IMG/VR virus record: IMGVR_UViG_3300044742_000054
Span: 1 to 42,706 of that record
Reading direction: 5' to 3' (one strand)
From: a virus
Length of the DNA: 42,706 nucleotides
The translations under genes and the position numbers were made by a program. The notes under the pieces are model-generated. The model saw nothing but the letters and a program-made list of their open reading frames with translations. It searched no databases and had not been told where the DNA came from. This document shows, one piece after another, positions 2,196-35,987 of the stretch (the stretch's first letter is position 1; each line of letters starts with the position of its first letter).

Positions 2196-3659
2196 ATGTC
2201 ATCCGCAACCATCCCGCAAGCGCTTTCCCTGTTCAACGCCCTGTCGCACGCTGGCAAGGTGCAGACCATCACCGCGCTCTATCACGGCGCGCCCGGTTTC
2301 GACGTGCCGGGCAAGTCCGGCGGCGAGTTGGACTACATCGTCGCCGCATGGGTCAACTCCGGCGCACTTCCCGCCGACGTGCTGGCGCTCGCCTGCGCGA
2401 CGACCGTCGCGGAGTCGCAAACGCTACTGGCGGTGCCCGCTGTGCCCGCTGTGCCCGCTGCGCCCGCTGCGCCCGCTGCGCCCGCTGCGCCCGTGGCGCA
2501 GGCGGCGATCGTTGCCGCGGCGGACGCCGTCGCGGAAAGGCTCGCCGCAGAGCGCGCCGCCGCGCAGCCCGTGCAGACTCCGCTCGCCGCCGCGATCGTG
2601 ACCCCGGTCACCCCGGCATTCGACGCCGCAGCCATGCCCCGCCAGCGCTCCCGCGTGCTGGCCCGCAGCCTGTTCGCGGACGTGCCTCAGGATGTGCGCG
2701 ACGCGATCCCGGCGGAGTTGACCGTCGAGTACTACGCGCACAACGACGCGCCGCCCGTGGACCCGGACTATGCGTTTACCGGGCACATCCTCGCCGATTG
2801 TCTCGGCGCGCTGGCCGCGTCGCCCGCCATTAATCTTTGGTTCAAGGGGTCGCGCGCCACGGGCAAAACGGAGATGGCGCGGCAACTCGCGGCGCGTTGC
2901 GGGCGTCCGTTTTTCCGGTTCAATTTCAACCGCTCGACGACGAGCGAAGATATCCTCGGCGGGCAGGCTATCGTCAACGGGGACACGCAGACCCTGCCCG
3001 GCCCGGTCGCGATCGGCGCGCAAACGGAGGGCGCGATCGTGCTGCTGGATGAGCCGACCTACACCGTCGCCGCTCACGTCGCCAGCTTGAATCCCATCCT
3101 AGAGCGCGACGGGGCGAAGGTCCGCATCCCGCGCACCGGGGAAGTACTGCACATTGCGCCGGGCGTGTGCTTCATTGCCGCCGACAACACGGGCGGGCAC
3201 GGGTCCACGTCGAACGAATACCACGGGCGCACGCAGTTTGGCGCGGACACGCTGGATCGTTTCGGGAAGTTCATTGCGTTCGATTACTTGCCCGCCGACG
3301 TGGAGCGGCGCGTGCTGCGTGCGCTTGTGCTGCGGGCCTGCGGCGTCAAGCCTAGCAATGACCTCGCGCGCAGCGTGTGCAAGCTGGTAGGCATTTGCCG
3401 CAGCAAGGCGGATTCGGGAGAGTTGGAGGGCGCGCCAAGCTTGCGCCGCGCGGTAGCGTGGACGGTATCGATCGTGCAGGGGTTCGCCGCAGCGGACTCC
3501 TATGTGTCATGCGTCGTTAACGCCGCGCCGGAGGATAGCCAAGAGGCGTTGCGGCAGATTTTCGCCGCATCGTGGGACCACGGCACGCAGCCTGCGGCCC
3601 TCGACGTGAACGCTAACCCGTTCGCGGAGGGCGACGACGCCAACGCGATCCCGTTTTGA
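2196..3659 (+). CDS. MoxR/CobS-like AAA+ ATPase
   Basis: A 487-residue AAA+ ATPase. The first 180 residues are low-complexity Ala/Pro, including a run encoded by a 9-base tandem repeat. The ATPase domain starts near residue 200: Walker A GSRATGKT at 218-225, Walker B with Asp285-Glu286 (VLLDEP) and a sensor segment around FIAADNTGG. The order and the GRTQFGADTLDRF stretch fit the MoxR/CbbQ/CobS group, which remodels or loads metal into partner proteins together with a von Willebrand factor A protein. That partner is the very next gene. The strong leader CTAGGAGC at 2180 fixes the start. No cobalamin-synthesis gene is present, so a cobaltochelatase role is unlikely. A chaperone-like role during infection is inferred. 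Confidence 0.85.
   Translation: MSSATIPQALSLFNALSHAGKVQTITALYHGAPGFDVPGKSGGELDYIVAAWVNSGALPADVLALACATTVAESQTLLAVPAVPAVPAAPAAPAAPAAPVAQAAIVAAADAVAERLAAERAAAQPVQTPLAAAIVTPVTPAFDAAAMPRQRSRVLARSLFADVPQDVRDAIPAELTVEYYAHNDAPPVDPDYAFTGHILADCLGALAASPAINLWFKGSRATGKTEMARQLAARCGRPFFRFNFNRSTTSEDILGGQAIVNGDTQTLPGPVAIGAQTEGAIVLLDEPTYTVAAHVASLNPILERDGAKVRIPRTGEVLHIAPGVCFIAADNTGGHGSTSNEYHGRTQFGADTLDRFGKFIAFDYLPADVERRVLRALVLRACGVKPSNDLARSVCKLVGICRSKADSGELEGAPSLRRAVAWTVSIVQGFAAADSYVSCVVNAAPEDSQEALRQIFAASWDHGTQPAALDVNANPFAEGDDANAIPF
2433..2495 (+). repeat. Tandem 9-bp repeat, seven copies
   Basis: Seven consecutive copies of GTGCCCGCT, later GCGCCCGCT, inside the AAA+ gene; they encode a Val/Ala-Pro-Ala run. 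The copies change from GTG to GCG partway and the last is imperfect. Slippage-prone low-complexity linker. Confidence 0.9.
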
Positions 3660-3694
3660 TCCTCACTCATCCATTCATCTAGGAGCAAACGAAC

Positions 3695-5908
3695 ATGCAA
3701 CCGAAACCGAAACGCAAATCCACCTTGCAGCCGAAAACGAACGCCGCCGCGCAGAACGCGCTCACCTCTGCCGCGATATTCGGCGTGCAATCGTCCCTGT
3801 TCACGGGGCGCGCCAAAGTAACCGCGCTAGGGCTGCAACGCGGCGTTAGCGAAATGATCCGCCGCGTGTATGCCTGCGTGCCGGGCGTCGCGCCGATGAA
3901 GCTCGACGCGCCCGCAATCAAGGTAACGTACATCGGGCAAGACGCCTGCGCCCGGTACGATTGGGGCCGGGACAAATCGGGCAAGCTCGCCGTCGCGGGG
4001 GTAATCAACTTGCCCGCGACCGGCGAGCCGGACGCCCTGATTCCGCGCAGCGTGGCGGACCAGTACACCGGCAAAGCGCTCCATGAGATGGGGCATTTCC
4101 TGTTTACTTCCCTGCCCGCGTTCGGCCATGCGATCCGCGACGCCGCGCGCCGCTACAACGTATCGGAGGATTTTGCGAAAAGCGTCATTAACGCGCTGGA
4201 GGACGTGGCGGAAGAGCGCGAGTTGATCCGCAGCGGGTACGCGCCGGGCGCGGGCGCGATGCTGCGGGCGCTCGTTGAGAAATGCACCTCCGACATTCCG
4301 CACGATGCGTACGGCACGATTAAGGCCTTTCCCGTGACTCTGGCATTCGGCCTGCGCCACTACACGCCCGCGACGCGCCCGCTCGTTGCCGCGCTCCCGC
4401 CCGTGCTGCGCGCGATTTATGACGACGCCGCGCGCGGCATGGCGGCGCTCCCCCAGCGCGCGATCGGCGATCCCGCTTCCATGCAACCCGTAATCGACGT
4501 GGCAAACGAAGTGCTGCGGGCGCTCGCCGCGCTGCGCGACGCGCAACCTCCGCAACCCCCGCAGCCGGATGAGCCGCAGGGGCCGGAGGGGCAACCGTGC
4601 GACGACGGCGAGCCGGGCAGGCCCGGCGACGGCGAGCCGGGCAGGCCCGGCGACGGCGAGCCGGGCGGCGACGGTGACGATGACCTCGACGGTGACGATG
4701 ACCTCGACGGTGACGATGACCTCGACACGGGCGACATGGGAGAGCAAGGCGACACGCGCAGGCCCGGCGACGCGCTCCCGCCTAACCCGACGCTCCCGCC
4801 GGACGCGACGCCGGACCCGCAGGAACCGCAGCCGGGCAACGACGACGACGACGACGCAGGCGAGCCGGGCGAAGAAAACACGCCCGCAAAGGATGAGGGG
4901 TCCGACGACCGCCCCGACGCGATCGATACGCGCGACCTCAACGGCACGCCGCTCGACGCCGACATGCAACCGGAGCAGGCGGGCGAGCCGGGCGACGGTG
5001 CCAGCGGGCTTGCCAATGATGCCGTGCGCGTCGTCAAGGCGAGCGAAGCGTCAGCATGGGATAAATCCGACGTGCAGGATAAGGTAAAGCAAGCGCTCAC
5101 CGCGAGCGCGCGCGTCGCGCACGGTCTACGCACCTTGCTTGACACCTCCGCACGCGACGCGCGCGAGGGCGGGCACCGTAACGGACGCCTCGACATGTCG
5201 GCGCTAGCGCGGATCAAAGTCGGCGCGGAAAATGTTTTCGAGCGCCGCGAATATCGCGACGGGTCCGACGCTGCGGTTTCGATCCTGATCGATCAATCGT
5301 CGTCAATGAACATGGACGCGCGCTATGTTGCGGCGCGCACGCTGGCCGGGACGCTTTCCAAAATCATCTCCGGTTGCGCGGGCGTGCGCTGTGAGATTCT
5401 CGGCTTTCATAGCGGGGGCGGCGCGGGCATGACCGATGCGACGCTAGATCAATTGATAGCCGACGTGGGGACCGATGAGGACGGCGACATGTGGCGCAGC
5501 CTCAAGGGGGATTGCTGCATTACCGTGTTCAAGGGGTTCGCGGAGTCGCACGCGACCGGCATGGCGCGCCTTGGTTCCTGCTATGGCACGGGCGGCACGC
5601 CGGATGCTGCGGCGATAACGCACGCCGCGCAGCGCTTGAACAAAGAAACGGCAGACCAGCATATTCTCATCGTCATTGCCGACGGCGAGGGTTCGCCGCG
5701 CGACGTGCTGGCGCGCATCGTGTCGCGCATCGAACGCGAGGGCACCATGCTTATCGCGATCGGCATTGAGCAAGACATGTGCGAGGCATTCACGCATCGT
5801 TGCAAAGTGGACGATGTCGCCAAGCTCAACGAGTCCGGCCTGCACGCTCTGCTCCGCGCGTTGTCGCAAAGCGCGCTGGCGCAGGATATCCGCGCCGGGA
5901 ACGATTAG
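3695..5908 (+). CDS. CobT-like VWA-domain protein
   Basis: A 737-residue protein built like cobaltochelatase subunit CobT. The N-terminal region has a metal-binding HEMGH motif (His130-His134) in a helical segment. A long acidic Asp/Glu/Pro/Gly linker at about 290-450 contains two sets of tandem repeats. The C-terminal von Willebrand A domain carries a complete metal-ion-dependent adhesion site: DQSSS at 533-537, Thr635 and Asp663. AAA+ ATPases of the MoxR/CobS group normally work with such VWA proteins, and the ATPase gene lies 35 bases upstream. The start follows CTAGGAGCAAACGAAC, shared exactly with the gene at 5979. No CobN-type large subunit exists here, so the substrate is unknown; host-protein remodelling or virion assembly are possibilities. 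Confidence 0.85.
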   Translation: MQPKPKRKSTLQPKTNAAAQNALTSAAIFGVQSSLFTGRAKVTALGLQRGVSEMIRRVYACVPGVAPMKLDAPAIKVTYIGQDACARYDWGRDKSGKLAVAGVINLPATGEPDALIPRSVADQYTGKALHEMGHFLFTSLPAFGHAIRDAARRYNVSEDFAKSVINALEDVAEERELIRSGYAPGAGAMLRALVEKCTSDIPHDAYGTIKAFPVTLAFGLRHYTPATRPLVAALPPVLRAIYDDAARGMAALPQRAIGDPASMQPVIDVANEVLRALAALRDAQPPQPPQPDEPQGPEGQPCDDGEPGRPGDGEPGRPGDGEPGGDGDDDLDGDDDLDGDDDLDTGDMGEQGDTRRPGDALPPNPTLPPDATPDPQEPQPGNDDDDDAGEPGEENTPAKDEGSDDRPDAIDTRDLNGTPLDADMQPEQAGEPGDGASGLANDAVRVVKASEASAWDKSDVQDKVKQALTASARVAHGLRTLLDTSARDAREGGHRNGRLDMSALARIKVGAENVFERREYRDGSDAAVSILIDQSSSMNMDARYVAARTLAGTLSKIISGCAGVRCEILGFHSGGGAGMTDATLDQLIADVGTDEDGDMWRSLKGDCCITVFKGFAESHATGMARLGSCYGTGGTPDAAAITHAAQRLNKETADQHILIVIADGEGSPRDVLARIVSRIEREGTMLIAIGIEQDMCEAFTHRCKVDDVAKLNESGLHALLRALSQSALAQDIRAGND
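4604..4668 (+). repeat. Tandem 24-bp repeat in the VWA gene linker
   Basis: Two complete 24-base units (4604-4627, 4628-4651) and a partial third encode DGEPGRPG repeats in the acidic linker of the VWA protein. Confidence 0.9.
4670..4723 (+). repeat. Tandem 18-bp repeat in the VWA gene linker
   Basis: Three exact copies of GACGGTGACGATGACCTC (4670-4687, 4688-4705, 4706-4723) encode DGDDDL repeats. Calcium-binding-like composition, but no defined calcium motif. Confidence 0.9.
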
Positions 5909-14726: not shown

Positions 14727-16835
14727 ATGTCTTTCATGGACACGGACCTCGCCCGCTCGGGCTTGGTCGCCACCGACCTATCGTCGATCGAAACACCGAA
14801 CCCCTTCGCCCCCACCACCTCGCAGTACAAGATTCCTTACTGGTTACCGGACGGCACGCCGCATCCGTTCATGTACCGCGAGCGGCTGGAGATACCGCGC
14901 CCCGATCGCGGCAAGTACAACCAGCCGTCGAAAGAGCAGGCGATCGCAGCAGGCCGACCCGAAACCGACACCACCTACCCCTACCTCAATCCATTCATCC
15001 TGCAACGCCGCTTCACCTCCGTGCAGACGGGGCTGACGTGGGCGCAGGTGCGCGCGATCCCGCCGCCCCACGGCGACGGCAAACTGTTCTGCCTCACCGA
15101 GGGCGAGAAGAAAGCGGTGGCGGTGGGGCTGTTCTGCGCGCGGCTGGCGATCGGTATCGGCGGCTGCTACAACGGCGTGGTGCGGGCGTGGGACGGCTCG
15201 TTCGACGTGCATCCCGCGCTGCTGGAGATCATACAAGCGGGCGATCGGGTGGAAGTGGTGTTCGACGCCGACATGCGAACGAATCGCAACGTGGAGCAGG
15301 CGGCGGGTTCGCTGCGCCGGGCGCTGGTGCGGCGCGGCATCCGCGTCTCGTTCGTCGTGGTGCCGCCGACCGTGAAGGGCATCGACGATTGGCTGATGGC
15401 CCACTCGGTGCAGCAACGGGTGGCGGCGTATGAGAGTTTGCAGCGGCTGACGTTCGATCGCGGCGAGTTGCAGGAGGATCGCCCGTCGCTGATCGCTTAC
15501 CTCGACTTGCCGACCAACGACGACGCGCTGATCACCAACGAGGCGGCGGCAGGCCGCGTCCTCGACATGCATGAGCGGTACAAGGACCGCATCTGGATCG
15601 AAGACAGCGAAGACATGATGTATGAGACGGTCACCAGCGACACGCCGCAGCCGGTCACCGACGCCTTCATCGACAAGCAGCCGAAATGGTTTCAGGCGCA
15701 CATCAACCACAGCTTCTCCCCGGCCAAGATCAAGAACGCCTTCGCTGCGCTCGCCGCTGACCAGCACCGCCACCGCAACGCCATCCATGCATATGTCGAT
15801 AGCTTGAAGTGGGACGGCGTCGATCGCTTGGAGTCGATGTTCGTGCGCGGGTGGGGCGCGGTGGACGATCCCTACACCCGCGCCATCGGCAAGGCGTGGC
15901 TGGTCGGCCTCGTTGCAAGGGTGTACCGGCCCGGCTGCGACATGCAGACCATGCTGATCTTGGAGGGGAAGCAGGGCATCGGCAAATCTCGCTCGCTGAA
16001 GGCTCTGGGCGGGCGCTGGTACGTCGAGACGACCGACAAGATGGATAACAAGGACTTTCTGCTCGCCGCGCACAGGAGCCTCATTTTCGACCTTGCCGAG
16101 CTAGGTGCCTACAAATACGCCGACTTCGCCTTCGTCAAGGGGCTGCTCTCCACCGCCGTCGATCTGATCCGCGCCCCCTACGGGCGCAAGGCCGAGGTCA
16201 AGCCGCGCCGGTTCATCATCGTCGGCACCACCAACGAAGACCTGTACCTGCGCGACCTCACCGGCAACCGCCGCTTCTGGCCGATCGCCTGCGGCAACAA
16301 GGTGGATATCGATTGGATCGAAGCCAACCGCGATCAGTTGTTCGCGGAAGCCAAGGTGCGGCTCGACGCCGGGGCCGAGTGGTGGGTGGACGACAGCCTG
16401 ACGCTGGCGGTGCTGGATGCCCGCATCGCCCGCGACCCGTGGGAGGATGCGATCGAAACGGTGCTGCTCGACGTGCAGCGCGGCGCGGCCCTCGTCCTCA
16501 ACAACGTGCCTTATCACTTCGCCCCGTCCGAGGTGCTGCTGCGCGCGGTGAGCAGCGGCAACAACAGCAGCCCGAATTACGCCCGGCTGCATGGACTGAT
16601 GAAGAAGATGTTCCCCGAGTGGGAGCCGTACCACTACGTCAACCCGCTGAAGCCGATCAACGTCGGGGGCGTGATGAAGCCGTCATCGCGCGGGTTCCGC
16701 ATCCCGGTGAGCATCGCGCAGACCGTGGTTACGCCGATCGACGCGGCGACGGTGACCATCTTGAACAGCAAACCCCTTGGCGAGTCGAACGACAGCGCAT
16801 CGCCGCCGGACAATCCATTTATCGTAGGGCCGTGA
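14727..16835 (+). CDS. TOPRIM (DUF3854)-VirE primase-helicase
   Basis: A 702-residue replication protein. The N-terminal half has a TOPRIM-like DUF3854 domain, with LTEGEKKA (Glu125) and FDADM (Asp180, Asp182), the acidic residues that bind metal in DnaG-type primases. The C-terminal half is a virulence-associated E (VapE/VirE) P-loop domain: Walker A GKQGIGKS at 414-421, then LIFDLAEL and a sensor region VGTTNEDLYLRDLTGNRRFW. Proteins with this layout serve as primase-helicases in phages and genetic islands. It is the last replication gene. The ATG follows CTGGGAG by 6 bases. A membrane or capsid-related role of VapE is not suggested here. Confidence 0.9.
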   Translation: MSFMDTDLARSGLVATDLSSIETPNPFAPTTSQYKIPYWLPDGTPHPFMYRERLEIPRPDRGKYNQPSKEQAIAAGRPETDTTYPYLNPFILQRRFTSVQTGLTWAQVRAIPPPHGDGKLFCLTEGEKKAVAVGLFCARLAIGIGGCYNGVVRAWDGSFDVHPALLEIIQAGDRVEVVFDADMRTNRNVEQAAGSLRRALVRRGIRVSFVVVPPTVKGIDDWLMAHSVQQRVAAYESLQRLTFDRGELQEDRPSLIAYLDLPTNDDALITNEAAAGRVLDMHERYKDRIWIEDSEDMMYETVTSDTPQPVTDAFIDKQPKWFQAHINHSFSPAKIKNAFAALAADQHRHRNAIHAYVDSLKWDGVDRLESMFVRGWGAVDDPYTRAIGKAWLVGLVARVYRPGCDMQTMLILEGKQGIGKSRSLKALGGRWYVETTDKMDNKDFLLAAHRSLIFDLAELGAYKYADFAFVKGLLSTAVDLIRAPYGRKAEVKPRRFIIVGTTNEDLYLRDLTGNRRFWPIACGNKVDIDWIEANRDQLFAEAKVRLDAGAEWWVDDSLTLAVLDARIARDPWEDAIETVLLDVQRGAALVLNNVPYHFAPSEVLLRAVSSGNNSSPNYARLHGLMKKMFPEWEPYHYVNPLKPINVGGVMKPSSRGFRIPVSIAQTVVTPIDAATVTILNSKPLGESNDSASPPDNPFIVGP

Positions 16836-16936: not shown

Positions 16937-17032
16937 ATGCTGCGCCGACTTCTTGAAGCGTTGCTGATCATCGCGGTGTGGGCGTTCGTGCTGTACGTCT
17001 TGATGTGTGCTTTCGAGGGAGGATGGAAATGA
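16937..17032 (+). CDS. 31-residue membrane microprotein
   Basis: A very short gene (MLRRLLEALLIIAVWAFVLY and so on) with one strong hydrophobic helix preceded by two arginines, which would place its N-terminus in the cytoplasm. It overlaps the next gene by ATGA at 17029, and this overlap also fixes the start of that gene. No good ribosome site is visible upstream, which lowers confidence. Function unknown. Confidence 0.5.
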   Translation: MLRRLLEALLIIAVWAFVLYVLMCAFEGGWK

Positions 17033-17589
17033 ACGAGAAGATCGCCGCGCCGCCGCGAGAGCCGTGCAAGCCGCAGCAATGTCGTTGGACGCCGATGGCC
17101 TGCGCCAACGTAGGCCGGTGCCTGTATGCTGACGCACAGGTGCCGCCGCCCCCTGCGCCCGCCGACGCGCTGATTGCGAGGATAACTGGCTATCTCTCCA
17201 CCGGGGGATTGTTCAATCCCGAGCTTGCCCAACATGACGCGGTGCGCGATTTACTCATCGACTGCCGTGACCGCATCGCCGCGCTGGACCGAGACAACGC
17301 AATGCAGCATGAAGGGTTGCGGCAAGGTGTAGACAGGATCGCCGCGCTGACGGCAGAGCGGGACAAGCTACAGGAATTGGCGAATGACGGAATCCATGCC
17401 GAACGCGCCGCGCTGATCCGCGCCACCAAGGCCGAGGCCCGCGCTGATGCGATGCGAGATGCGCTACGCAATGCAGTCATCGACCGCCGCATCTGCAACC
17501 TATGCAAGACTTACTTTGGGGACGGCGGGGAGCAGCACGTCCCCGGTTGTCTCGCAGCCCTCGACGCCGCGCTGAAGGAGCCGAAATGA
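17029..17589 (+). CDS. Coiled-coil protein with C-terminal zinc finger, paralogue 1
   Basis: A 186-residue protein. The start at 17029 is set by the ATGA overlap and GGGAGG six bases upstream; the frame is open to 16978. N-terminal cysteines (CKPQQC) are followed by a Pro-rich hinge (DAQVPPPPAPADALIARI), then a long coiled coil (about 75-155, with RIAALTAERDKLQEL and AEARADAMRDALR), and a C-terminal CNLC-x10-H-x3-C zinc-finger motif ending in GCLAALDAALKEPK. The next gene is its tandem paralogue and shares a 51-bp and a 41-bp identical DNA segment with it. The function is unknown; coiled coil plus zinc finger suggests a dimeric adaptor or nucleic-acid-binding protein. Confidence 0.75.
   Translation: MNEKIAAPPREPCKPQQCRWTPMACANVGRCLYADAQVPPPPAPADALIARITGYLSTGGLFNPELAQHDAVRDLLIDCRDRIAALDRDNAMQHEGLRQGVDRIAALTAERDKLQELANDGIHAERAALIRATKAEARADAMRDALRNAVIDRRICNLCKTYFGDGGEQHVPGCLAALDAALKEPK
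17131..17181 (+). repeat. 51-bp repeat, copy 1 (with 17709-17759)
   Basis: Identical over 51 bases to 17709-17759. It encodes the Pro-rich hinge shared by the two tandem paralogues. Confidence 0.9.
17545..17585 (+). repeat. 41-bp repeat, copy 1 (with 18075-18115)
   Basis: Identical over 41 bases to 18075-18115. It encodes the common C-terminus of the paralogues and contains the AAGGAG ribosome site for the next gene in both places. Confidence 0.9.
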
Positions 17590-18122
17590 CCGCCGCGCCG
17601 CCGCGAGAGCCGACTGAGGCGATGGACATGGCGGGCTATCGCGTGCTGCAACATTACGCTGAGGCTGACTGCCGCCCGACAGCAAAGCAGGTGTGGCGAG
17701 CCATGTACGACGCACAGGTGCCGCCGCCCCCTGCGCCCGCCGACGCGCTGATTGCGAGGCTGAACTCAATCGTGATGCACCAATTTATTGTGCTTGACCG
17801 CGAAGCAGTGGCGATGGCCCGCGACCGCATCGCCGCGCTGACGGCAGAGTTGGCGGAGCAAGAACGTACTGGAAGCGACTGGCTGCGGCAGCGAGATGCT
17901 GCGCTGGACCGCGCCGAGCAAGCCGAGGCCCGCGCTGATGCGCTGCGGGAGTTGCTGCGGGGAGAAGTAATACACGGTATGACCAAAGACCCGCGTAGCT
18001 ACGCGATTACGCATCACCTTTGCCAACTGTGCAAAGCGGATTGGGTCGCGGGAGCGCCAGAGACACACTCGACAGGTTGTCTCGCAGCCCTCGACGCCGC
18101 GCTGAAGGAGCCGAAGACGTGA
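17586..18122 (+). CDS. Coiled-coil protein with C-terminal zinc finger, paralogue 2
   Basis: A 178-residue tandem paralogue of the preceding gene. It keeps the start region APPREP, the Pro hinge DAQVPPPPAPADALIARL, the coiled coil (RIAALTAELAEQE to AEARADALRELLR) and the terminal CQLC-x11-H-x3-C plus GCLAALDAALKEPK. The middle has diverged, and the N-terminal cysteine pair is lost. ATGA overlap with the first copy and AAGGAG just upstream fix the start. Identical DNA at both ends with diverged centres suggests recent duplication, conversion or strong selection on the ends. Confidence 0.75.
   Translation: MTAAPPREPTEAMDMAGYRVLQHYAEADCRPTAKQVWRAMYDAQVPPPPAPADALIARLNSIVMHQFIVLDREAVAMARDRIAALTAELAEQERTGSDWLRQRDAALDRAEQAEARADALRELLRGEVIHGMTKDPRSYAITHHLCQLCKADWVAGAPETHSTGCLAALDAALKEPKT
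17709..17759 (+). repeat. 51-bp repeat, copy 2
   Basis: Second copy of the hinge segment at 17131-17181, 578 bases downstream. Confidence 0.9.
18075..18115 (+). repeat. 41-bp repeat, copy 2
   Basis: Second copy of the C-terminal segment at 17545-17585; it supplies the ribosome site for the GTG start at 18119. Confidence 0.9.
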
Positions 18123-18307
18123 CACCGCATAAGCCGCGCCGTGATCACGTCACCGGCCCCCGTGTCGAGCAGGTGGGCGATCCGGCAGCGGCGTGCCTGC
18201 TGGCGGCGTGTCTCGGCTACCCCGCCCACGTTGGCGCGGGTCTTGCTTCGGTTGTCCCGCAACCCCCTGTTTTGCCCCCTCCTGTAAAGAAAGGCGACAT
18301 GCCATGA
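18119..18307 (+). CDS. 62-residue protein, GTG start
   Basis: A small gene with GTG at 18119 overlapping the previous stop (GTGA), AAGGAG at 18105-18110, and an ATGA overlap with the PEP-CTERM gene at 18304. These three features together make translation likely. The product has a short Ala/Leu-rich central helix (DPAAACLLAACLGYPAHVGAGLASV) between a basic N-terminus and a Pro-rich C-terminus. It is not recognised. Confidence 0.5.
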   Translation: MTPHKPRRDHVTGPRVEQVGDPAAACLLAACLGYPAHVGAGLASVVPQPPVLPPPVKKGDMP

Positions 18308-19011
18308 AGAAACTCCTGCTCGCTCTTGCCCTTGCGGCGCTCGCTGCCCCGGCGTCCGCCATCCTGCAACTCTCGGCCAACATCAACGGGATGCTGTTCA
18401 ACTGCGCCGATCAGGCCGCGTGCGACACCAACCTCGCCGTGGGCCAACTCCAGATCGCCAACCAGACCTTCAACGGGGTGGAGATCGTCGGCTCCTCGCA
18501 GTTCCAGACCATCGGCACCACCAACTTCCTCAACACCTCCTCGTTCCAGTTCATCAACCACAACCTCGCCGCCGCAAGTGTCATTTTCGCCGTCAGCGGG
18601 ATCAATTTCCTCGGCCCGGTCAACAACTTCTCCGCAAGCGGCAGCGGAACGTGGCAGAGCGCCAACGGCTCGACCATCAACCTGTCATGGTACGGCGATC
18701 CCGCCAACGCGCAGGGCGCGGACAGCCCGCTCGACCTCCCCGGCCTTCTGCTTGCCAGTTTTGCGGATGCGGCAGGGAGTGATGCCGACGCCTTCGCCTA
18801 CAGCGTCGGCGGGCCGTTCGCGGCGGCAGGGCTGCACAGCATGAGCCTCGGCACCAGCGGCGTGCTGACGGCGTGGGACGGCGTAGCGGGTAACGAGAGC
18901 GTGCTGGTCGGTCGGGCGCAAGCCCTGATCACCCAAGAGGTGCCGGAGCCTGCCACGCTGGCGCTGATGGGGCTGGCGCTGGTAGGCGCAGGCGTCGCGC
19001 GTCGGCGGTGA
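18304..19011 (+). CDS. Secreted PEP-CTERM sorting-signal protein
   Basis: A 235-residue exported protein. Residues 1-19 are a signal peptide (MKKLLLALALAALAAPASA). The body is rich in Asn, Ser, Gly and Ala with beta-type patterns and two cysteines (FNCADQAAC). The end is a complete PEP-CTERM signal: VPEP at 213-216, a hydrophobic helix and a terminal RRR. In bacteria, exosortase (EpsH/XrtA) recognises this signal, removes it and releases or anchors the protein at the cell surface, often alongside exopolysaccharide. No exosortase is in the phage, so the host must supply it. The ATGA overlap with the preceding gene fixes the start and shows it belongs to the operon. A role in altering the host surface, for example masking receptors, is inference. 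Confidence 0.9.
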   Translation: MKKLLLALALAALAAPASAILQLSANINGMLFNCADQAACDTNLAVGQLQIANQTFNGVEIVGSSQFQTIGTTNFLNTSSFQFINHNLAAASVIFAVSGINFLGPVNNFSASGSGTWQSANGSTINLSWYGDPANAQGADSPLDLPGLLLASFADAAGSDADAFAYSVGGPFAAAGLHSMSLGTSGVLTAWDGVAGNESVLVGRAQALITQEVPEPATLALMGLALVGAGVARRR

Positions 19012-19253
19012 CCCTCTGCTACCTTTGCGGCAGGCGGGTTACCCAGTACTGCGGCAAGGTTTCGATCCACAGGGAGCGGCGCGATAACACGCGCCGTCTT
19101 TCTGTCTGCCCCACCACCGGCCTGCCGTGGAAGACGCTGCTGCGGCAGATCGATCGGCTGGCTTCGGTCAAGGAGCCGCCGGAACAAACACCGGGGGCAC
19201 CACCACCACCGGAGGAACCACGACCACCGGGCTGTTGTCCTGCGTCCCGGTAG
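19008..19253 (+). CDS. Possible small CxxC protein at the convergent junction
   Basis: An 81-residue frame starting at GTG 19008 in a GTGA overlap with the PEP-CTERM gene. The first half has Cys4, Cys7, Cys15 and Cys34 (CYLCGRR, YCGK, VCPTTG) and a helical stretch (WKTLLRQIDRLASVKE), which looks like a genuine zinc-binding fold. The last 25 residues are Pro-rich and antisense to the end of the leftward lipoprotein gene, overlapping it by 86 bases. The coupling and the cysteines favour a real gene; the lack of a clear ribosome site and the overlap argue for caution. Confidence 0.45.
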   Translation: MTLCYLCGRRVTQYCGKVSIHRERRDNTRRLSVCPTTGLPWKTLLRQIDRLASVKEPPEQTPGAPPPPEEPRPPGCCPASR

Positions 19254-19809
19254 TCGGCGCGTTCTGCCCCGGCCCGCCGACGAGGACGAACCCATCGCGG
19301 TTGGTGATGTCGTTCTCGGTGTGGATGTTGGTGATGCTGGTCGGCAACAGCGCCTGCGGCACCGGCTTGAACGCGGCGAGCGCGGCGTAGGACGCCTGTG
19401 TGGTGGTGGCTTGGTTGTTCGACTGTACTTTCCCGAGTTGATAACCGAAATACGACGACACCAAGGCCGTCGTCGGTCCCGCGAACACCGCCGCCCATTT
19501 CAACGCGCGATCCTCCTGTGTCTCGGGGATGCGCGGCAGTTGCACGGCAATGTTCTGCGCGTGCCCGTCGCTGCGACCGACGAGGGCCAGCGCCATGATC
19601 GCCATGCTCTTCGTTTGTTGATCGCTGCGCTCCGCGATCTGCGCCATCGCGATGTACCGCGCCTCGTCGGCTCGCGCCTTCGCCACATCGACCTCGCGCT
19701 GCGACGTTATCGTCAGCCGGTACGCTTCCATCTGCAACACGAAGTTGGGGTCGATGGTGGTGGCGCATCCAGTTATGCATGACATGCATAGCGCGGCGAC
19801 GATTCGCAT
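19168..19809 (-). CDS. Putative outer-membrane lipoprotein
   Basis: A 213-residue protein, last gene of the leftward late block. The N-terminus has a short hydrophobic stretch and a lipobox ITGC with the acylated Cys15. A charged helical segment follows (30-70), then a hydrophobic segment (104-126, ALKWAAVFAGPTTALVSSYFGYQLG) that could span a membrane. The C-terminal 60 residues end in Val/Pro repeats. A lipoprotein with a second membrane segment is reminiscent of single-gene spanins, but those have their membrane helix at the very C-terminus, so this is only one option. Virion or lysis function is inferred from its place after the tail genes. Confidence 0.65.
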   Translation of the reverse strand: MRIVAALCMSCITGCATTIDPNFVLQMEAYRLTITSQREVDVAKARADEARYIAMAQIAERSDQQTKSMAIMALALVGRSDGHAQNIAVQLPRIPETQEDRALKWAAVFAGPTTALVSSYFGYQLGKVQSNNQATTTQASYAALAAFKPVPQALLPTSITNIHTENDITNRDGFVLVGGPGQNAPTTGTQDNSPVVVVPPVVVVPPVFVPAAP

Positions 19810-34997: not shown

Positions 34998-35987
34998 CTA
35001 GGTGTTGTCCAGCCGACCTTGCAGCGAGCGGTTCGACACCGTGAGGTTGCCCGCGAACGCGAGAATCTGCGTCACCGCGTCTTGGTTGATGCTGTACCTC
35101 TTGCCGGGGTCGAGCGCGACGAAGTTCCGATCCTTGTGCGGGCGGAAGAACAGGAACTTGGAGTTGATGAAGTACGCCACCGTCGCTGGAGCGAAGCCGC
35201 CGAGGCCACCGTCGAGCACCACGTCGGCATCCATGTACTTGACGCTGGGGAAGCCGAAGCCCGCCGTCGTGTCGGGCGAGTTGAACCGCTGGATGTTTTG
35301 CAGCGATTGCATGTAGATCGCCCACATCAGGTTGTCCATGACGATCAGGTCGGGCCGGTTCATGCCGCGAACTTGGCGCGCCCAGAGCCGATTCATGTAG
35401 ACGTTGATGTTGGTGGATGAGATCGCCGCCAGCCCGTCCGTGGTGCCCTTGTAAAGCTGGTTCTGCCAGAACGGCCACGCGACTTGATCGATGCCGCCGT
35501 AGGTTCCGGCAGCGAGTGGCGTGGCCGAGATGGCGGCGGCGAGGCCCGCGATCTCCTTGCCGCCGAAGCCGGTGCCGTTGGCGTAGATGCCTGCGGCGAT
35601 GAGGTTCTGCATCGTGTCTTCCGCGACCGTCATCCGGCCTTCCAGAAGATCGATGATCTGTTCCTTGCCGCTGTTTTGCAGCAGTTCCAGCCCGCTGATG
35701 GTGACCGGGCACGCCGCCTGCTTGATGTCGTACTGGGCGGCGCTGATCACGTCCTGCGCGCCGGTCGGCAGCGTCTCGTAGCCGCTGTACCACCCGGCAT
35801 TGCTGTTCTGCGCGAACGACAGTTCCTGCATGATGACGTTGCCACCCGAGAACGTCTTGGAGTTGCCACGGCCTTGCAGGCGGCGCAGCAGCGCGTTGTT
35901 CTTGGTGACGTTGTCAGCGATGATCCCGCTGCGGCTTTGGATCGTGGTCGCGATGATGTCGCTGACCTGTGCATTGGCGAATGCCAT
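34998..35987 (-). CDS. Major capsid protein, HK97 fold
   Basis: A 329-residue major head protein. Typical features are an N-terminal helix (SDIIATTIQSRSGIIADNVTKNN), the E-loop-like stretch (FSGGNVIMQELSF), a long spine helix (EGRMTVAEDTMQNLIAAGIYANG) and the P-domain/A-domain pattern FFRPHKDRNFV. The C-terminus SNRSLQGRLDNT is typical. It has the second-strongest ribosome site (GGAGG) of the block, expected for an abundant protein, and sits between scaffold and decoration genes. A 111-base gap upstream (with a 7-bp dyad at 36056-36082) separates it from the HTH gene. Confidence 0.85.
   Translation of the reverse strand: MAFANAQVSDIIATTIQSRSGIIADNVTKNNALLRRLQGRGNSKTFSGGNVIMQELSFAQNSNAGWYSGYETLPTGAQDVISAAQYDIKQAACPVTISGLELLQNSGKEQIIDLLEGRMTVAEDTMQNLIAAGIYANGTGFGGKEIAGLAAAISATPLAAGTYGGIDQVAWPFWQNQLYKGTTDGLAAISSTNINVYMNRLWARQVRGMNRPDLIVMDNLMWAIYMQSLQNIQRFNSPDTTAGFGFPSVKYMDADVVLDGGLGGFAPATVAYFINSKFLFFRPHKDRNFVALDPGKRYSINQDAVTQILAFAGNLTVSNRSLQGRLDNT

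Follow-up and report, generated by a model that had tools for sequence, protein, structure and literature searches.

The window, i.e. the whole analysed stretch of 42,706 bases, is the record of a tailed phage in which genes for terminase, portal, major head protein, tail, DNA polymerase and helicases were recognised. The replication genes (DNA polymerase, exonuclease, helicase and primase) are read rightward, those for the virion (terminase, portal, major head, tail and amidase) leftward. The last recognised gene of the rightward operon is a primase/helicase gene at 14727..16835 (+ strand; PHROG 1313/256), and the convergent late operon ends with a lipoprotein-like gene at 19168..19809 (− strand), which is kept in syntenic phages. 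The gene of the major head protein (34998..35987, − strand; PHROG 9953) served as a marker for phage relatives. At the convergence of the two operons lies the gene of a PEP-CTERM protein of 235 amino acids (18304..19011, + strand), whose coordinates, strand and length had been given correctly by an earlier sequence-only reading of this DNA.

The N-terminus of the product, MKKLLLALALAALAAPASA, corresponds to a signal peptide of residues 1-19 (18304..18360, + strand), which was called by residue pattern and by conservation, since A17 and A19 at the -3/-1 positions of the cleavage site are unchanged across 40 aligned homologues. The C-terminus, VPEPATLALMGLALVGAGVARRR, directly precedes the stop codon. 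Residues 213-235 (18940..19008, + strand) form the PEP-CTERM sorting signal consisting of VPEP, a hydrophobic helix and RRR, in which E215 and P216 are likewise unchanged in the 40 homologues. The model search that the sequence-only reading had proposed as a check gave 29.6 bits for PF07589 (cut-off 20.7) and 25 bits for TIGR02595 (cut-off 16), and both parts of an exosortase substrate named in that reading are confirmed. A six-frame search of the 42,706-base record detected this gene as its sole PEP-CTERM match (E 2.2e-9). With a model-matching C-terminal tail and an N-terminal signal peptide in one product, its membership of the PEP-CTERM class is as well supported as sequence allows. For the exported body between the two signals (residues 20-212; 18361..18939, + strand), AlphaFold2 predicted a jelly-roll-like beta-sandwich with a mean pLDDT of 89.9 and values mostly above 90 in the body. 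Residues invariant in the 40 aligned rows include D36, C40, D41, N135, Q137, G138, P146 and G147. Comparison of the predicted fold yielded weak and generic matches to carbohydrate-binding modules and receptor-binding heads, with TM-scores of at most about 0.5.

Two short open reading frames border on the gene. A 62-codon frame (18119..18307, + strand) shares an ATGA overlap with its start, and an 81-codon frame (19008..19253, + strand) a GTGA overlap with its stop. The former overlaps a promoter-like element and is, judged by this position, probably not a gene; the latter is doubtful as a gene, contains a terminator-like hairpin and had no match in Pfam and PHROG searches. The hairpin, an intrinsic terminator-like structure at 19076..19097 (+ strand), lies approximately 65 nt past the stop codon of the PEP-CTERM gene, and the segment 19066-19110 folds strongly (-24.5 kcal/mol, z -5.0). 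The sequence-only reading had placed the gene, by its ATGA overlaps, inside a phage operon. The overlaps do exist, but the embedding is doubtful in view of the promoter-overlapping frame on one side and the hairpin-bearing frame on the other, and the gene resembles an independent unit more than a gene inside an operon.

Homologues were sought in several sequence collections. Searches for exact 8-mers of the single protein in IMG/VR, GTDB genomes and INPHARED gave no matches, from which the protein could have been taken for a singleton. This method was too strict, and the singleton reading was overturned by motif and alignment scans of IMG/VR, which recovered the family. A scan of the IMG/VR DNA for VPEPxxLALxG detected at least 119 stretches, most of which, among the matches listed, are true C-terminal tails. 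When the proteins were compared after removal of both sorting signals, that of the window grouped with 13 other viral proteins, to which it is 38-68% identical over nearly the full length. Alignment searches of IMG/VR revealed 59 and then 93 matching loci, of which 80 carrying full-length homologues were kept. All 80 encode a PEP-type tail (74 with PEP, six with the first P replaced), and a signal peptide was found by pattern in 75 of 79 testable loci, the remaining four being truncated where the contig stops. Of the two search patterns, one represented the tail and the other was derived from the body. The body pattern occurs in 54 kept loci, and 27 of these do not match the tail pattern; as a tail is nonetheless encoded at every one of these loci, the universal presence of the tail is not only a matter of ascertainment. 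Where whole-gene values were computable, dN/dS ratios of 0.12-0.36 indicate purifying selection. The tree contains deep viral-only clades (19 rows at 99/97 and eight rows at 99/95) and the bacterial copies fall outside them, with weak resolution of the deep branches. No PHROG family matches the gene, and relatives were not found among isolated phages (INPHARED) and plasmids (PLSDB). The gene is not a one-off. It belongs to a large, previously unnoticed viral family with members on over 80 contigs, and a literature search turned up no description of phage PEP-CTERM proteins, in line with the earlier expectation of few or no described examples. A second viral PEP-CTERM family with 26 members was also observed. 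Its body is unrelated, the mature protein begins like VILSFGQTSG, and its loci include L045, L049, L050, L061, L068, L078, L092, L110 and L117, several of them on contigs with a terminase gene.

Four nearly complete phages (G077, G078, G080 and G026) possess the replication and virion genes of the window. Their major head proteins are 60-65% and their PEP-CTERM proteins 59-68% identical to those of the window. As these collinear phages have the gene at the same place, the earlier view that it is a phage gene and not a stray host fragment holds. Its orientation at the early/late junction differs: in the four phages it is on the late-operon strand, in the window and L167 on the early one. The phage with the most similar head protein (G005, 84%) has no family gene and contains only small unrelated open reading frames at that spot. 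The other carriers are distinct phages that possess tail, portal, terminase or polymerase genes of their own; a recognisable terminase was present in 29 of 50 PEP-CTERM-bearing viral records tested, and in other phages the family gene occurs near RecB-like and other nuclease genes. By its patchy distribution, its occurrence in either orientation and its promoter-like and terminator-like signals, both recognised by pattern, the gene corresponds to a phage moron. At approximately twelve loci, the family gene has another, different PEP-CTERM gene as its neighbour, usually directly downstream (L171:6747-7598, also L175, L176, L178, L179, L196, L169 and L165), which suggests a pair of surface proteins. 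In syntenic phages, a small two-helix membrane protein, possibly a holin, is encoded next to the PEP-CTERM gene (L166:5678-5875, L167:4655-4852, L170:5556-5828).

In the bacterial genomes sampled, the family is rare. An alignment scan of 84,980 genomes, for which one peptide pattern was used, revealed one full relative (Roseomonas populi) and one partial relative. The same pattern is present in 25 viral loci and therefore, within the limit of a single pattern, the viral excess is real. Among 299 genomes of the Roseomonas order, the full family was found in Roseomonas and in genome G256 (several copies), and in none of 397 other Pseudomonadota. The bacterial copies of Roseomonas and G256 sit among ordinary chromosomal genes, and no prophage was seen around these loci (for G256 by reading the open reading frames). 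None of 47 viral records contains an exosortase gene and processing must therefore be carried out by the host, which supports, as far as sorting signals can, the use of a host exosortase proposed by the sequence-only reading. The Roseomonas order has exosortases and many PEP-CTERM genes, with one exosortase each in R. populi, in the family-bearing G256 and in G450, a genome with capsid relatives. Contig 137 of G450 (L243, L244; 39 kb) encodes a head protein, a portal and a terminase 52%, 35% and 27% identical to those of the window, together with tail relatives. On the basis of this contig, the Roseomonas order is a possible host group. Relatives of the head protein were detected in eight of 385 alphaproteobacterial genomes and are spread across the Alphaproteobacteria; only two of ten checked genomes with relatives of the phage proteins (G450 and G591) have an exosortase. 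A search of 397 Roseomonas-order genomes for spacer-like DNA gave hundreds of short GC-rich matches unusable as spacers, and the one match to stand out was that of head and portal in G450.

The upstream region of the gene was compared with the control element that precedes proteobacterial PEP-CTERM genes. This element, described by Haft et al. 2006 (PMC1569441), comprises a motif 1 of 17 nt, ending in TTTACA, and a sigma-54 site, which follows after approximately 63 nt and is itself located approximately 71 nt upstream of the start. In the window, a sigma-54-like -24/-12 site, TTGGCGCGGGTCTTGCT, is present at 18231..18247 (+ strand), 56 nt before the ATG. It agrees with the consensus at 12 of 13 positions (P about 0.003 when compared with randomly drawn stretches of the window) and is the sole match of at least 11 positions on both strands of the 42.7 kb. 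A half-decayed site resembling a PrsR box lies 51 nt before it (18163..18179, + strand), with TGTCG kept and the TTTACA half lost. Its spacing is that of the intact boxes of relatives, but its score is not above chance in the window alone, and as the remnant lacks TTTACA, the regulation of the window gene itself is uncertain. A sigma-70 scan detected no promoter upstream of the gene on the same strand.

Within the family, TTTACA and a sigma-54 site occurred together at the right places in 11 of 43 genes, where random stretches of the same loci would give 0.25, a count in which related genes are not fully independent, although their proteins have diverged and the sites lie outside the family coding sequence. 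All 11 genes belong to the clade of the window, whose own gene is not among them. The aligned boxes share roughly TGTCG-N6-TTTACA, and L167 and L281 have PrsR boxes with one mismatch. In G078 and G080 the pair of elements is unique in the genome, in G077 it is the better of two. As a positive control, the element was recovered in six of 14 bacterial PEP-CTERM gene entries from the Roseomonas order (0.5 expected), two of the entries being the same genes entered twice. The spacers are near-constant in the 11 viral genes (39-51 nt), whereas those of the bacterial examples measured 52-61 nt. From most other clades of the family the element is absent. In the clade of the window, these upstream sites probably represent a host-type PrsR/sigma-54 promoter element that places the gene under host regulation.

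Taken together, the gene is best read, with a probability of roughly 0.7, as a phage moron whose product is sorted to the surface by the host and changes the surface or the matrix of the infected cell. The host, expression and function in this reading are those that we infer, the surface function by analogy with the protein's class. During infection (or lysogeny), the gene would be transcribed by the sigma-54 form of the host RNA polymerase and switched by the PrsK-PrsR system, through which the host regulates its own PEP-CTERM proteins. The protein would be exported by the Sec system, cut after residue 19 by signal peptidase and held in the inner membrane by its C-terminal helix until cleavage at the PEP motif by the host exosortase, which would deliver it to the outer surface or the exopolysaccharide. 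Once displayed, it would change the cell surface or matrix to the benefit of the phage. Superinfection exclusion and an altered biofilm, both suggested by the sequence-only reading, may be among these effects. Hindered adsorption, either of a competing phage or of progeny that would be wasted on infected cells and debris, is tentatively ranked first among the benefits, at rather less than even odds; altered aggregation comes next and is clearly less likely.

Two other explanations accept that the protein is sorted by the host. It might be a decoy that saturates the exosortase, so that host PEP-CTERM proteins remain undisplayed and the matrix is loosened. Good signals at both ends would suffice for such a substrate, and all members keep them; a decoy, however, has no need of a folded body that is conserved, has many invariant positions and is kept by purifying selection, and we consider this explanation unlikely. 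Less improbable, but still not favoured, is a matrix or adhesion protein by which infected cells aggregate or virions stay near hosts, like PepA in flocs. The PEP-CTERM protein PepA is needed for the flocs of Zoogloea (PMC9012009), it uses the same sorting route and is similar in size, and the predicted beta-sandwich weakly resembles carbohydrate-binding modules. The match to the PepA model (NF033554) is weak, though, reaching 26.9 of 80 bits, which is far under the cut-off and does not show homology of the body, and most other NCBIfam matches rest on the tail.

The remaining alternatives concern the nature of the gene itself. Its position on the late-operon strand in several syntenic phages and a predicted fold weakly similar to receptor-binding proteins might point to a decoration or structural protein of the virion that merely resembles an exosortase substrate. 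Yet signal peptide and anchor are kept everywhere, the gene of the window is found on the early strand, that of other phages near RecB-like or other nuclease genes, and the closest relative lacks the gene. A virion protein is thus very unlikely, and the earlier suggestion that the protein may decorate released particles gains no support. Least credible of all is the idea that a host gene was recently captured by accident and has no function in the phage. Chromosomal homologues do exist in the Roseomonas order, some with the same promoter element; the deep viral-only clades, the distribution over dozens of diverse contigs, the purifying selection and the retention of all tails speak against it, and recent capture was rejected on the tree and on dN/dS.

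A host-sorted surface protein encoded by a moron can be compared with several known systems. Phage superinfection-exclusion and lysogenic-conversion envelope proteins, of which P22 SieA is an example, are likewise encoded by accessory junction genes of variable presence and orientation, and the product described here is likewise a predicted envelope protein. What separates it from morons of the SieA type is the signal for a host sorting transpeptidase and, in a part of the family, the promoter of a host-type sigma-54 regulon. The logic is analogous to that of LPXTG/sortase surface proteins, in which a C-terminal sorting signal is also read by a host transpeptidase, but signal, enzyme and type of cell envelope are all different. 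Bacterial substrates of the PEP-CTERM/exosortase (EpsH/XrtA) system (TIGR02595, PF07589; PMC1569441) likewise have a signal peptide and a tail of 20-25 residues with PEP, helix and basic end, their bodies similarly belong to no known family, and they share the PrsR/sigma-54 element with the clade of the window. The viral proteins differ in that they are encoded by phages without an exosortase and in that the full-length family is rich in viruses and almost absent from the sampled bacteria.

Until now, exosortase sorting has been regarded as a system of the bacterial surface that is linked to the formation of biofilms and flocs. With a widespread viral family of substrates, part of which carries the PEP-CTERM promoter of the host, phages would take a direct part in how bacteria of soil, sediment and sludge display surface proteins, and in the biology of their matrix. 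Given the viral family and the host control signals upstream of many of its genes, many phages probably remodel the surface of infected cells. It is conceivable, at a little below even odds, that many tailed phages have joined the host exosortase display regulon by PEP-CTERM genes, sometimes in tandem and in part under PrsR/sigma-54 control, so that display would occur when the host builds its exopolysaccharide matrix. The family may also offer a clean system in which to test the role of a PEP-CTERM protein, and a marker linking uncultured phages to exosortase-bearing hosts.

Some further features of the window were recorded. A predicted tRNA-Leu gene overlaps a tail gene and is probably false. 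At 16978-18122, two neighbouring genes without database match resemble diverged tandem duplicates with common CLAALDAALKEPK ends. The adjoining genes at 2196-5908 resemble those of a CobS-like AAA ATPase and a CobT-like protein; the PHROGs label them as porphyrin/cobalamin genes, but they probably do not serve cofactor synthesis.
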